Of a stretch of 64,000 bases of DNA, positions 2,270 through 33,919 are shown piece by piece (within the stretch, counting starts at the first letter, position 1; every line of letters starts with the position of its first letter). The stretch covers positions 62,001-126,000 of the forward strand of contig JAICWE010000001.1 in NCBI GenBank assembly GCA_025934955.1, read 5' to 3'. The translations under genes were made by a program, and so were the position numbers. The notes beneath the pieces are model-generated. The model made no database searches, was not told the origin of the DNA, and saw nothing but the letters and a program-made list of their open reading frames with translations. The stretch comes from Gemmatimonadales bacterium. GTDB taxonomy: Bacteria; Gemmatimonadota; Gemmatimonadetes; Gemmatimonadales; GWC2-71-9.

Positions 2270-3760
2270 ATGCACTCGCGCCTGCGATGGGCCGTCCTTC
2301 TCCTCGGTGTCGTCGCGTGCGGCATCCCGCACCCTCCACCGACCAACCCGATCCGCTTCCTGTCCATCAACGACGTCTATGTGGCCGACACGCTCGCCGA
2401 CGGCACCGGCGGCCTGGCGCGGGTCGCGACGGTGCGGAACCGGCTGGCGGGTGAGGGCCCGGTCCTGTTCGTCCTCGCGGGCGACGAGCTGAGCCCGAGT
2501 CTCCTGAGCAAGTACTACAGCGGCCGGCAGATGATCGACGCGCTCAACGCCGCGAAGCTGGACTACGCGACGTTCGGCAACCACGAGTGGGAGCTGCCGC
2601 GCGACACGCTCGTCGCCCGCATCGCCGCGTCGAAGTTCAAGTGGCTGTCGGCCAACTGCGTCGAAGCGAGCGGGCAGCCCTTTCCCCAGGTGCTCGCGTG
2701 GGACACGGTGCGGGTGCGGAAGCAGAAGGTCGGCCTGTTCGGCCTCACGCTGCAGGGCGATTACCGGAAGTACGTCCACTGCGGCAATCCCGACAGCGCG
2801 GCCAAAATCGCGGTGGACACGCTGGGGAAGCTCGGCGCCGAGCTCATCGTCGGACTCACCCATCAGACGCTCGCGGCCGACCGGGCGCTGCTCGAGCACG
2901 AGCCGAAGCTCGACCTGATCCTCGGCGGCCACGAGCACGAGGCGCACGACACCACGGTCGGCGGCCGGCACGTGCTCAAGGCCGACGCCAACGCACGATC
3001 GGCGCAGTTCGTCACGCTGTGGGGCGCCCAGGGCCAATGGCGGGAAGCGCCGCGGCTGCTCCGCATGGATCCGGACGTGCCGCTCGACACGACGGTGGAG
3101 ACGGTGGTCCATGGCTGGACCGACAGTCTCCGTGCGCGGCTCGGGCCGGAGAAGGTGATCGCCACGGCGGTGGATACGATGGACGCGCGCGATGCCGCGC
3201 TCCGGCGCCAGGAGATGCCGTTCGGTGATCTGATCACCGATGCCATGCGGGTCGGCACCGGCGCCGACGTCGCGCTGCTCAATGCCGGCACCCTCCGGCT
3301 CGACGACGTCATCCGTCCCGGCCCGGTCACCAACTACCAGATCGAGTCGGTCTTCCTCTTTGCCGACGAGGCGCGGACGGTCACCTTCCCACTCAGCGGT
3401 GCCGCGCTGCGCGAAGTGCTGGAGCACGGCGTCGCCAACGGCTCGATCGGCGCCGGGCCGTTCCTCCAGGTGTCGGGTGTCCGCTTCACCTACGATCCGG
3501 GTCGCCCGAGCGGACAGCGCATCACCGAGCTGTCCCGCACCGATGGCCGCGCCATCGTGCCGGCCGACCAGCTCACCGTCGCGTTCGACGTCTATCCGGC
3601 CTGCGAGCACGGGGACGGATACCAGGTCCCGACCGCGGCGCCCGCCTGCGCCAACCAGGCCGGCGCGCCGCGGGCCGCCGATCTCGTCATGCGCTACATC
3701 GCCGGCCCGCTCGGCGGCCGGATCACCACGCCGCCCGGCGGTCGCATCAACCGCCGGTGA
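2270..3760 (+). CDS. UshA-like metallophosphatase/5'-nucleotidase lipoprotein
   Basis: A 496-residue envelope phosphohydrolase. An N-terminal lipoprotein signal ends in the lipobox VVAC (Cys17). The metallophosphatase motifs follow in order: SINDVY (the usual N-D-x-H has Tyr for His), GDELSPS, GNHE, a lone His in GLTHQT, and GGHEHE. A C-terminal 5'-nucleotidase domain contains DLITDAM and LNAGTLR. Such proteins dephosphorylate nucleotides or sugar nucleotides outside the cytoplasm to recover phosphate and nucleosides. The ATG at 2270 is preferred over an in-frame GTG at 2261, because AGAGGAG (2252-2258) is 11 bases before the ATG but only two before the GTG. The Tyr for His change at the first metal site is notable. 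Confidence 0.88.
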   Translation: MHSRLRWAVLLLGVVACGIPHPPPTNPIRFLSINDVYVADTLADGTGGLARVATVRNRLAGEGPVLFVLAGDELSPSLLSKYYSGRQMIDALNAAKLDYATFGNHEWELPRDTLVARIAASKFKWLSANCVEASGQPFPQVLAWDTVRVRKQKVGLFGLTLQGDYRKYVHCGNPDSAAKIAVDTLGKLGAELIVGLTHQTLAADRALLEHEPKLDLILGGHEHEAHDTTVGGRHVLKADANARSAQFVTLWGAQGQWREAPRLLRMDPDVPLDTTVETVVHGWTDSLRARLGPEKVIATAVDTMDARDAALRRQEMPFGDLITDAMRVGTGADVALLNAGTLRLDDVIRPGPVTNYQIESVFLFADEARTVTFPLSGAALREVLEHGVANGSIGAGPFLQVSGVRFTYDPGRPSGQRITELSRTDGRAIVPADQLTVAFDVYPACEHGDGYQVPTAAPACANQAGAPRAADLVMRYIAGPLGGRITTPPGGRINRR

Positions 3761-4062
3761 ACCCCGAGCCGCATTCGCTCCGCGACCGCCTCGGCGGCGC
3801 GCTCGTCCGACTGGGGATCCTGATTTTCCTGGTGGCGGGAATCTGGAGCTTCGTGCTGGATCTGAGCCTCATCAGCAACGACTTCGGATTCTGGGCGCTG
3901 CTCGGCAGCTTCCTGCTGGCGCCGCTGACGCTGGTCGTCGCGCCGTGGTACGCCGGCTTCGTGGCGCACAACTGGTGGGCGGTGGTGCTGGGCTACGGCG
4001 GCGGGACGCTCGCGCTGATCCTGATCTTCGCCGGCTCGCGCGTGGGCGACGGGCACGCTTGA
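3757..4062 (+). CDS. Small integral membrane protein
   Basis: A 101-residue protein with three hydrophobic spans at about residues 17-36, 46-66 and 74-93, a short charged N-terminus (RDRLGGALVR) and a hydrophilic end. It belongs to no family I recognise. The GTG start overlaps the stop of the metallophosphatase gene (GTGA), which suggests translational coupling and possibly a shared envelope role. The sequence rules out little beyond a soluble enzyme. Confidence 0.7.
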   Translation: MNPEPHSLRDRLGGALVRLGILIFLVAGIWSFVLDLSLISNDFGFWALLGSFLLAPLTLVVAPWYAGFVAHNWWAVVLGYGGGTLALILIFAGSRVGDGHA

Positions 4063-4084
4063 GCGGTGGCGTGCCTTAACGACA

Positions 4085-4222
4085 AATCCCGGCGAGTAAT
4101 AAACTCGGCCGGGACGCGCAGGCTTTAGCAGATCGATCACCCGGACTGCAAAGCCGAAATCTCCGGGGCCCTCACGGGCTATGCTTCGAACTGCGCTGAA
4201 GTTAGTCAGGCGTCGCCGACTC
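4085..4222 (+). other. Structured intergenic region with serial hairpins
   Basis: Between the membrane-protein gene and the diguanylate cyclase lie consecutive inverted repeats: TCCCGG-c-GAGT/ACTC-gg-CCGGGA (4087-4114, loop AATAA); GGCTTT-a-GCAG/CTGC-AAAGCC (4121-4155, 14-base loop); GCCC/GGGC (4168-4179); CTTC/GAAG (4184-4201); and AGTC-a-GGC/GCC-GACT (4204-4221). The first may end the upstream operon, although no T run follows. The rest could be an sRNA or leader RNA. It does not match any riboswitch consensus I know well enough to name. A -10-like element next to the following ATG argues that part of it lies upstream of that gene's promoter. Confidence 0.45.
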
Positions 4223-31752: not shown

Positions 31753-32316
31753 TCACTCGTGCGGCTCCTTCCGCACCGTGCGCGCCTGCTGCACGGCGGA
31801 GGCGAGCTCGGTGTACGCCGTCGGGTCGATTTCGCGGAATTCCCCCGAGTAGGTGATCGTGCCGTCGGGCGCAATGACGAACACGGTCCGGTTGTCCACG
31901 CCGTACTTGGTCGCGAACGCGCCGTACTGCCGGCCGAGCACGCCGCCCGAGTCGCTGAGGAAGGTGAACGGATAGCTCCGGTCCTTGGCCCAGCTCGCGA
32001 GCTCCGGCGCCGAATCGGTGCTCACGGCAAGCAGCGTCACGCCCTTCCCGCCGTTGAAGACTTTCGCGTACTGATCACGGTACGCGTCCATTTGGATGGT
32101 TCAGCCCTTGGTTCGCGCCTTGAAGAAGAACGCAAGGACGACCGTCTGGCCGCGAAAGTCGTGCAGGTGGACCGCCTTGCCCACGCCGCCGCGCGTCGCG
32201 GAGACGAGCGCGAAGTCGGGCGCCCTGGTGCCGGGCGGGAGCGGCGCCGGGTCCTGCGCCCGCGCGGGGAGCGCGGCGCCGGCCAGAAGCGCCGCGGCGA
32301 CTGCCATGGATCGCAT
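31753..32316 (-). CDS. Selenocysteine-containing peroxiredoxin (TGA recoded as Sec), exported
   Basis: Read through one in-frame TGA at 32101-32103, this is a complete 187-residue thioredoxin-fold peroxidase. A signal peptide covers about 1-25 (LLAGAALPARAQ). APDFALVSATRGGVG, then DFRGQTVVLAFFFKARTKG, leads to the TGA at codon 72, followed by TIQMDAYRDQYAKVF, LLAVSTDSAPE, FLSDSGGVLG and TVFVIAPDGTI. The TGA falls exactly where BCP/AhpC-type peroxiredoxins have the peroxidatic Cys (T-x-x-C). No Cys exists elsewhere, so a Sec enzyme with no resolving Cys is implied. A hairpin fitting a bacterial SECIS follows the TGA. Start: ATG at 32316 with GAGGA nine bases ahead. The alternative, a Cys-to-stop mutation (TGC/TGT to TGA), cannot be excluded, but both halves look intact. 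Confidence 0.85.
32065..32086 (-). promoter_or_regulatory. Candidate bacterial SECIS hairpin
   Basis: On the minus strand, 14 bases after the TGA at 32101-32103, CGCGTAC pairs with GTACGCG (7 bp) around the loop CGTGATCA. A G among the first two loop bases, followed by T, and a loop about 21 bases from the TGA are the features described for bacterial SECIS elements. The hairpin lies within the coding sequence, as expected in bacteria. Confidence 0.7.
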
Positions 32317-32344
32317 GCGGAATGTCCTCGAGTGAGGGTCTCCA

Positions 32345-32350: not shown

Positions 32351-32354
32351 CATC

Positions 32355-32374
32355 GCGGCGCTGCTCAGCGCCGC
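32355..32374 (-). terminator. Hairpin over the stop codon of the dehydrogenase-like gene
   Basis: GCGGCGCTG/CAGCGCCGC, a 9-bp perfect stem with a two-base loop. It overlaps the stop codon at 32365-32367. No T run follows, so termination efficiency is uncertain. Confidence 0.45.
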
Positions 32375-33699
32375 GTCACCCGCCAGATGGTGCCGTTGCG
32401 GTCGGCCGAGATGTAGAGGGTGCCGTCGGGGGCCACCGCGACGCCGCTCGCGCGAAGCGCCGTCGTGGTCGTTCCGGTGGCGAAGGTATTCCACGCCGTC
32501 GGCTTCCCGTCGGCGAAGCTGATGAACGCCACCTGATAGCCGCCCGGCGGGAGCGGCGCGCGATTCCACGAGCCGTGCAGCGCGACGAACGCGCCGCCGC
32601 GGAACGCAGCGCCGAACTGGTCGCCCGGGTAGAACGCGAGCGCGAGCGGCGCGTAGTGCGCCGGCAGCACGATCGCGGGAGCCTTCCTGGCGGCGCATTC
32701 GCCGACGGTCTTGCCATCGCCGCCGTATTCGGGCGCGAGCACCTTCTGCTTGAGCCCGGTGTCGTAGTAGCAGTAGGGCCAGCCGAGATCGTCGCCGCGG
32801 TTGAGCTGGGCCACTTCCTCACCCGGGTTCTCGGCGCTCCGCTCGGCGCTGAAGCCCCAGTTGTCGGCGAGCTGGTCGCGGCCGTTCACCGCGACCCAGA
32901 GCTCGTCGGTGCCGGGTCGGATCGCGAGCGCCTCCGCATTCCGCGCGCCGGTGGCGAAGCGCTTTCCGTCGGCGAACGTCTGCCCGGCGCGATCGGCCGC
33001 AAAGGTCCAGATGCCGGCGCGATGCGCCAGCTCGGTACAAGGCCGCCGGCCCTTCGAGCCGGCCTTGCGATCGTGCTCCTGACAGCTGTTGGTGGCGGAG
33101 CCGACGTTGACGTACATGGTGTTGCCGACGAACGCGAGACTCTTCGCGGTGTGGTTGCCGTCGGCGGGAAGATCCTTCACCACCGTTTCCATGTCCGACT
33201 CCGGCTCCAGCTTTCCCGGCGTGAGTTTCCAGCGCACGATGCGATCGTCCAGCGCATAGTAGATGTAGTCGCCGTGGAGCTTCACGTCGTTGCCGCCGCC
33301 GGGCCCGAACGCCGCGTGCTCGTCCGGCTTGCCGTCGCCGTTGCTGTCGCGGAAGGCGAGCACGCCGCCGGTGCCGCTCCCGTCGCCTCGCCCCTCGAAG
33401 GAGCTGCCACCGCTCAGCGCCGCGTAGAGATCGCCGTTGGGCGCGACCACGAGCTGGCGCACCGGACCAAGGCTCTTCCCCACGACGACGGCGCAGAACC
33501 CGTCGGGCAGCTTGAGTCCGCCGTTGCCCTCGTCGCACGCGATGCCGGTGGCGCCGGCGGGCCGCCGCTGCGGCGGCGGGGTGGTCTGCGCCGCGGCGGA
33601 TGCGGCCGCGGAGAGTGCGGCGAAGGCGACGCACGCCGTCGGGCCGAGCGCACGAGCGAGCGGCGCGAGCGCGATGGCGCGGCTGCGCGGGAGCGTCAT
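32365..33699 (-). CDS. Secreted sorbosone/glucose dehydrogenase-like beta-propeller
   Basis: A 444-residue exported protein with a signal peptide (cleavage near ASAAAQ). The body is a six-bladed propeller like soluble PQQ-dependent sugar (sorbosone/glucose) dehydrogenases: LPDGFCAVVVG, VRQLVVAPNGDLYAA, FRDSNGDGKPDEH, GNHTAKSLAFVGNTMYVNVG, RNAEALAIRPGTDELWVAVNGRDQ, LHGSWNRAPLPPGGYQVAF and GVAVAPDGTLYISADRNGTIWRV. It probably oxidises a sugar in the periplasm, although the cofactor is not proven by sequence alone. The ATG at 33699 has GGAGG seven bases ahead; an open frame reaching 33837 is only the promoter region. The promoter is flanked by a phased repeat array. Confidence 0.85.
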   Translation of the reverse strand: MTLPRSRAIALAPLARALGPTACVAFAALSAAASAAAQTTPPPQRRPAGATGIACDEGNGGLKLPDGFCAVVVGKSLGPVRQLVVAPNGDLYAALSGGSSFEGRGDGSGTGGVLAFRDSNGDGKPDEHAAFGPGGGNDVKLHGDYIYYALDDRIVRWKLTPGKLEPESDMETVVKDLPADGNHTAKSLAFVGNTMYVNVGSATNSCQEHDRKAGSKGRRPCTELAHRAGIWTFAADRAGQTFADGKRFATGARNAEALAIRPGTDELWVAVNGRDQLADNWGFSAERSAENPGEEVAQLNRGDDLGWPYCYYDTGLKQKVLAPEYGGDGKTVGECAARKAPAIVLPAHYAPLALAFYPGDQFGAAFRGGAFVALHGSWNRAPLPPGGYQVAFISFADGKPTAWNTFATGTTTTALRASGVAVAPDGTLYISADRNGTIWRVTRR

Positions 33700-33712
33700 C
33701 GGGATACCTCCA

Positions 33713-33809
33713 GAGGGGAACATGACGCCTGCTCGAGGGAAAATTTCCCTCTCCGCGCAAGATAGCCGGGCCCCGCCAGAGGGAAAAATCGGCTCCGTCA
33801 GAGGGAAAA
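33713..33809. repeat. Four GAGGGAAAA-type repeats on a 22-bp grid
   Basis: GAGGGGAA at 33713, GAGGGAAAA at 33735, 33779 and 33801: all spacings are 22 or 44 bases. The copies at 33779 and 33801 share CAGAGGGAAAA, that at 33713 CAGAGGGGAA. The copy at 33735 forms the palindrome GAGGGAAAATTTCCCTC with the following bases. The empty slot of the grid (33757) holds a -10-like element for the minus strand. The repeats lie between the dehydrogenase-like and SWIB genes. Confidence 0.75.
33759..33764 (-). promoter_or_regulatory. Candidate -10 element of the dehydrogenase-like gene
   Basis: TATCTT on the minus strand, inside the empty slot of the 22-bp repeat grid. The repeat at 33779 overlaps where a -35 would be (TTTTCC), and those at 33735 and 33713 lie downstream of the expected start. 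Confidence 0.45.
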
Positions 33810-33919
33810 CGAGCCGCTCCCCTCTTGCCACCGCCACTCAGCATTGTAGTTTGGGACGCGTCGGACCGGCTTCCTGACCCTGTAGGCACGCCTGATCTCA
33901 CCCTCACGGGAGACCCGCG

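Follow-up and report, generated by a model that had tools for sequence, protein, structure and literature searches.

A probable exported selenocysteine peroxiredoxin typical of Gemmatimonadota, with a relaxed active-site proline

Introduction

Peroxiredoxins with selenocysteine (Sec) have been known since 2001 (Sohling et al., as cited in PMC13188914). One of them is PrxU of Eubacterium acidaminophilum (NCBIfam NF040737). The gene described here lies in a 64-kb window, by which we mean the whole stretch of DNA that was analysed, and its predicted product resembles PrxU in having the AhpC/TSA fold, a peroxidatic Sec in a TxxU motif, and a downstream bacterial SECIS element (bSECIS). It differs from PrxU in carrying a predicted export signal, and in that Phe or Tyr stands in place of the Pro of PxxxTxxU in most of the Sec members sampled. 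Membership in the NCBIfam PrxU family (NF040737) was ruled out, the window protein scoring 65.9 bits against a cut-off of 270.

Two further groups of peroxiredoxins bear comparison. AhpE of Mycobacterium tuberculosis (PDB 4x0x and 1xxu) has the closest fold in the PDB and, like the window protein, a single redox residue that depends on an outside thiol reductant. In contrast to the window protein, to which it is 29% identical, AhpE is a Cys enzyme; it has the motif Pro and no export signal. The BCP/PrxQ thiol peroxidases share with the window family a TxGC-T-x-Q/E active-site stretch and the Pfam AhpC-TSA domain, and the BCP/PrxQ model NF006960 matches all 48 aligned members, albeit below its curated cut-off (62 of 140 bits). 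Unlike BCP/PrxQ, the window protein has no resolving Cys, is predicted to be exported, and appears to use Sec.

A possible parallel for the electron supply comes from Caulobacter, where the ScsB-TlpA-PprX system, as summarised in PMC5403849, comprises a membrane carrier, an exported TlpA-like thioredoxin and an envelope peroxiredoxin. Genes for the same three kinds of protein adjoin in many of the relatives studied here. In contrast to the Caulobacter system as summarised there, the carrier is of the CcdA type, the peroxiredoxin is probably a selenoprotein, the carrier and thioredoxin pair is located away from the window gene, and the relay itself would be one deduced from genes.

While Sec peroxiredoxins themselves are already known, what appears to be new here is an exported, Cys-free, one-Sec peroxiredoxin that is typical of a whole phylum and has a relaxed motif Pro. 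A full-text literature search for Gemmatimonadota together with selenoprotein or selenocysteine returned no title or abstract describing such an enzyme, though its coverage was incomplete and an earlier description is possible. Gemmatimonadota went unmentioned in the selenoproteome surveys that we consulted.

A peroxiredoxin gene with an in-frame TGA

The gene is encoded on the minus strand of the window:

31753..32316, minus strand: complete gene of the probable peroxiredoxin selenoprotein, from ATG (32314-32316) to final TGA (31753-31755); 187 aa, with Sec as residue 72; assigned from domain matches and from orthologues with the same TGA
32101..32103, minus strand: UGA for residue 72, the peroxidatic position, where it is probably decoded as Sec; this column is a TGA or a Cys codon in orthologues
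32325..32328, minus strand: possible Shine-Dalgarno sequence AGGA, 8 nt 5' of the ATG, read from the sequence

Translation of 32316-31753 gives MRSMAVAAALLAGAALPARAQ...VVLAFFFKARTKG, a stop, and then TIQMDAYRDQYA...KEPHE with the terminal stop, and the TGA at 32101-32103 is the single internal stop. The initial annotation of this DNA had described two same-frame minus-strand halves divided by one TGA, which the reading frame confirms. It had also taken the joined halves for a peroxiredoxin, and we found that the Pfam AhpC-TSA profile indeed runs straight through the TGA of the joined protein (6.9e-29; 100.7 bits against a cut-off of 26). The Redoxin profile likewise matches across the stop (1.3e-17). 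The joined product of 187 residues contains no Cys at all, as had been claimed.

A split frame of this kind proves little on its own, because the GC-rich 64-kb window contains 153 TGA sites with some 60 open codons or more to either side. For that reason, the adjacency of two open frames was discarded as evidence for Sec. The protein homology to either side of the stop, the position of this stop exactly at the catalytic residue and the occurrence of the same TGA in most relatives are far beyond chance. An Rfam scan of the window returned no known element at gathering thresholds.

Conservation of the TGA across Gemmatimonadota

The best matches in 60 relatives of its family or order mostly have one in-frame TGA and no other, at identities of 44-64%, and a single in-frame TGA was likewise typical over 249 genomes of the phylum. 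(The relatives named here are Gemmatimonadota/Longimicrobiales MAGs.) When 162 distinct orthologues were compared, 103 had TGA in the active column, the remaining 59 had Cys, and no other state occurred. The stop takes the place of the catalytic Cys of the T-x-x-C motif, as the initial annotation had proposed; it is common to most relatives, with Cys in the others, and is not the mark of a lone decayed copy. When 395 genomes of the phylum were scanned for the motif, 231 were found to have the TGA form and 59 to have the Cys form.

Some genomes encode tandem peroxiredoxin pairs consisting of one Cys copy and one Sec copy, both with Pro at position -7 (L067, L079, L080 and L159, in genomes G053, G120, G202 and G188, respectively).

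A SECIS element downstream of the TGA

A candidate SECIS element follows the TGA:

32065..32086, minus strand: SECIS stem-loop; 7-bp stem CGCGUAC/GUACGCG, 8-nt loop CGUGAUCA, its second and third positions being G and U; 21 nt from the UGA to the loop

Counting the U of the UGA as 1, the RNA of the window reads CGCGUAC-CGUGAUCA-GUACGCG from nucleotide 18 (MFE -12.7 for 45 nt, z -2.44). The published bSECIS model has a loop of 3-9 nt, a stem of 4-16 bp, a G in the first two loop positions and a loop 16-37 nt after the UGA (PMC13188914), and the window hairpin agrees with this model in its 8-nt loop, the G of that loop, its 7 bp and its spacing of 21 nt.

The hairpin tracks the TGA rather than the family as a whole. 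Of the Sec genes, 102/103 form its six inner pairs, compared with 4/59 of the Cys genes; the outermost pair varies among G-C, C-G and U-A and still pairs in 89%. At codons +6, +7, +10 and +11, the Sec genes have invariant wobble bases (1.0), compared with 0.49-0.76 in the Cys genes, and folding energies measured against synonymous shuffles were better for Sec genes than for Cys genes (p 7e-7). The peptide AYRDQYA that follows the Sec site is near-invariant in Sec genes, whereas Cys genes vary there, as though the RNA hairpin dictated the protein at this point.

Selenocysteine machinery

The host genome (3.05 Mb, 88% complete, with the window on contig 85) encodes a tRNA-Sec (Rfam RF01852, 67.2 bits; tca anticodon according to ARAGORN), selA (516 bits), selB (322 bits over two stretches) and selD (373 bits), the last of these with an in-frame TGA of its own. 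All four of the components that the initial annotation had suggested looking for are therefore present, and the objection it had itself foreseen, a genome lacking Sec machinery, falls away.

The TGA of selD (L110; G000:C52:23158-24078, minus strand) is found at the usual Sec site of SelD, ...SHGAGUACKLG..., and is followed by a different hairpin. A formate dehydrogenase alpha-like gene in the same genome also has one in-frame TGA (L186; G000:C70:1841-2590), and it probably encodes a further selenoprotein.

In genomes that are at least 95% complete, selA was found in 24/24 with the TGA form, versus 0/7 with only a Cys orthologue (Fisher p 4e-7). No selA match was obtained in the Sec-form genomes G007, G010, G015, G029 and G048, and only a fragment in G002; all of these are less than 95% complete.

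That the gene is a pseudogene, a Cys peroxiredoxin gene whose TGA arose lately by nonsense mutation and whose halves are decaying, has a negligible probability: in a single genome, a one-base change of TGC or TGT to TGA would look no different, but the recurrence of this TGA in most orthologues throughout the phylum, the conservation of the protein on both sides of it and the co-occurrence of selA with the TGA form argue against this, and the shared TGA together with the conserved SECIS rules out both a pseudogene and a sequencing error. Alternatively, near-cognate suppression could act on the UGA, or the codon could specify an amino acid other than Sec, such as Cys or Trp, given that the Sec identity rests on sequence. 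We consider such a reading very improbable in a genome with complete Sec machinery, where a bacterial-type SECIS is correctly placed; moreover, Cys is the only alternative residue at this column and selA is missing from genomes with only the Cys form. The initial annotation had called the gene a probable selenoprotein. With the Sec machinery, the shared TGA and a SECIS kept only in TGA genes all in support, the comparative evidence indicates beyond reasonable doubt that it is one.

Fold, active site and export

The following features of the protein are referred to below:

32110..32112, minus strand: Thr69 of the TxxU motif; T or S in 161/162 orthologues
31888..31890, minus strand: Arg143, probable active-site Arg; invariant in 162/162 orthologues
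32122..32124, minus strand: Phe65, position -7, the site of Pro in canonical PxxxTxxC; non-Pro in 69/103 Sec genes, Pro in 59/59 Cys genes
32254..32316, minus strand: predicted N-terminal export signal MRSMAVAAALLAGAALPARAQ, with Arg, hydrophobic core and A-x-A, read from the sequence

The PDB structure that best matches an AlphaFold model made from the 48-sequence alignment (mean pLDDT 91.8) is that of M. tuberculosis AhpE, a 1-Cys peroxiredoxin (TM 0.70/0.84, 29% identity). The window protein shows an AhpC-TSA domain, a thioredoxin fold, Thr/Ser at -3 and an active-site Arg, which we take to be Arg143, all of them features of the peroxiredoxin superfamily. It departs from the superfamily at position -7, where Phe65 is found rather than Pro. 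The T-x-x-C motif recognised in the initial annotation holds up, but that annotation had missed the replacement by Phe of the Pro belonging to the full PxxxTxxC motif. It was also right that there is no resolving Cys of the kind found in 2-Cys peroxiredoxins. However, only 1/162 orthologues has another Cys after residue 30, so this absence is a trait of the whole family, including the Cys forms, and not of the Sec form alone.

Residues A20 and Q21 of the export signal are at least 90% conserved in the 48 aligned orthologues, and we infer that the protein is exported from the cytoplasm. Judged by its family, the Sec protein would be a peroxidase, although the missing motif Pro means that its peroxidase rate is not to be taken for granted.

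Gene neighbours and electron supply

The upstream neighbour is separated from the peroxiredoxin gene by 48 bp:

32365..33837, minus strand: glucose/sorbosone dehydrogenase-like exported protein (PF07995, 2.9e-10), start codon uncertain

A neighbour of this type recurs in 11 loci, with Sec and Cys forms alike. On its other side, the window peroxiredoxin gene is convergent with a threonine-synthase-like gene. A GC-rich hairpin of 9 bp is located between the sugar-dehydrogenase and peroxiredoxin genes (32354-32375, minus strand), and the peroxiredoxin gene may therefore have its own promoter; a search for a consensus promoter at this gene found none.

The neighbours of the orthologues were assigned by tblastn with named neighbour proteins. 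At 31 Sec loci, we found a convergent downstream pair encoding a CcdA/DsbD-type carrier and an exported WCxxC thioredoxin, mostly within 170 bp, and at three Cys outgroup loci the carrier, thioredoxin and peroxiredoxin genes occur in a row on one strand. Altogether, the carrier and thioredoxin genes are both linked to the peroxiredoxin in 34/162 gene surroundings, many of them short, including the three Cys outgroups. At locus L098, for example, a neighbouring gene for a TlpA-like thioredoxin occupies 3631-4182 when read in the orientation of the peroxiredoxin gene. The CcdA/TlpA pair is absent beside the window gene, and the ccdA-tlpA pair of this genome is on another contig. A tested precedent for an envelope peroxide relay is provided by ScsB-TlpA-PprX of Caulobacter (Cho et al. 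2012, as summarised in PMC5403849). The gene neighbours in relatives suggest that a CcdA carrier with an exported thioredoxin is likely to be the electron supply.

The host genome also encodes a peroxiredoxin-like protein (L105:884-1471, G000:C95; PF00578, 95.8 bits) that has lost the active-site Cys (FYPRDFTPSGETML). Its gene adjoins the ccdA-tlpA pair of this genome, in which the exported thioredoxin has a WCGNC motif. This company, and the distance of the pair from the window gene, count against the proposed relay. The Cys-less protein itself may act as a partner protein or be a pseudo-enzyme.

The selenoprotein might not be mainly a peroxidase: with the Pro lost, the exported protein could act as a thiol/selenol oxidoreductase, or else as a reductase of methionine sulfoxide or of another substrate. 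The replacement of the motif Pro in 69/103 Sec genes and the lack of a resolving Cys are consistent with such a role, and the CcdA/TlpA neighbours would equally suit a reductase of oxidised protein. Against this, Thr/Ser at -3 (161/162) and Arg143 (162/162) are retained, the motif is TxxU and not UxxC, the nearest folds are those of 1-Cys peroxiredoxins, and the full PxxxTxxC motif is intact in the Cys orthologues. We therefore think a function other than peroxidase unlikely.

The motif proline and Sec/Cys switching

The motif Pxxx(T/S)xxC has been stated for all six peroxiredoxin subfamilies (PMC8945050), and Sec peroxiredoxins are given as PxxxTxxU (PMC13188914). In the 103 Sec orthologues, by comparison, the residue at -7 is Pro in 34, Phe in 38, Tyr in 26, Ile in 2, Ser in 2 and Val in 1, versus Pro in 59/59 Cys orthologues. 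The motif scan of the phylum gave a similar picture: Phe 64, Tyr 44, Pro 35 and other 7 in the first 150 Sec matches, and Pro in 60/60 genuine Cys matches. One Cys match with Glu at -7 (G083:C39) was an unrelated chance match and was excluded.

We left the active-site columns out when building the tree, on which the Sec/Cys state changes 11 times and the Pro state 10 times. Cys genes nested among Phe/Tyr Sec genes (for example L074, L076 and L123/L038, the last being one gene of genome G027) all have Pro, and one genus (g28) contains Tyr-Sec, Pro-Sec and Pro-Cys versions (genomes G187, G135 and G027). A model of dependent evolution of the two sites was preferred over an independent one (LR 24.7, p 6e-5). 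Informative pairs on well-supported branches were split 4:0 (p 0.125), which is too few to decide. A 2006 survey of Prx counted five Cys-to-Sec events and no Sec-to-Cys event (PMC1794560). In the Gemmatimonadota family, there have apparently been several Sec-to-Cys reversions.

Leaving its cause aside, the coupling of Pro and Sec is likely to be real. Shared ancestry alone could account for it if one Sec clade had lost the Pro by chance and the Cys forms descended from Pro lineages. The independent changes are few, the four informative pairs are the only ones on well-supported branches, and these are quick trees of a 187-residue protein. On the other hand, the combination of Cys with a residue other than Pro occurs in 0/59 Cys genes, and the 60/60 Pro matches across the phylum, the Pro of Cys genes inside Phe/Tyr Sec clades and the preference for the dependent model all speak against ancestry alone, which we regard as possible but doubtful. 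The alternative is that Sec in place of Cys lifts the need for the active-site Pro, allowing the site to become Phe or Tyr, and that a return to Cys takes place only with Pro. To this causal reading we assign even chances.

Discussion

As a whole, we consider it highly probable that this gene codes for an exported peroxiredoxin with the AhpC/TSA fold and a single selenocysteine, with SECIS-guided Sec decoding, reduction by an outside thiol and a relaxed Pro. UGA codon 72 would be decoded as Sec by SelB and tRNA-Sec under the guidance of the downstream hairpin, for which the gene evidence is strong, and the signal peptide would take the protein out of the cytoplasm. There, by analogy with the family, a selenolate held by Thr69 and Arg143 would attack peroxide to form a selenenic acid. 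With no resolving Cys, the oxidised enzyme must be reduced by an outside thiol, and the gene neighbours in relatives suggest that the likeliest donor would be an exported TlpA-like thioredoxin charged via the membrane carrier CcdA. The Sec nucleophile may tolerate loss of the -7 Pro, and Pro is invariably found where a lineage has gone to Cys.

Although most sampled Gemmatimonadota genomes have this gene, annotation pipelines may well split it or cut it short. The protein would give a widespread bacterial group a peroxide defence that is exported and depends on selenium. Repeated switching between Sec and Cys, with Pro bound to the Cys state, makes testable the long-standing question of what selenium buys beyond sulphur. 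If Sec does lift the need for the Pro, then it would not be merely a faster Cys, but would alter what the surrounding active site must be, and the family would supply natural pairs in which the effect of Sec on an active site could be measured.
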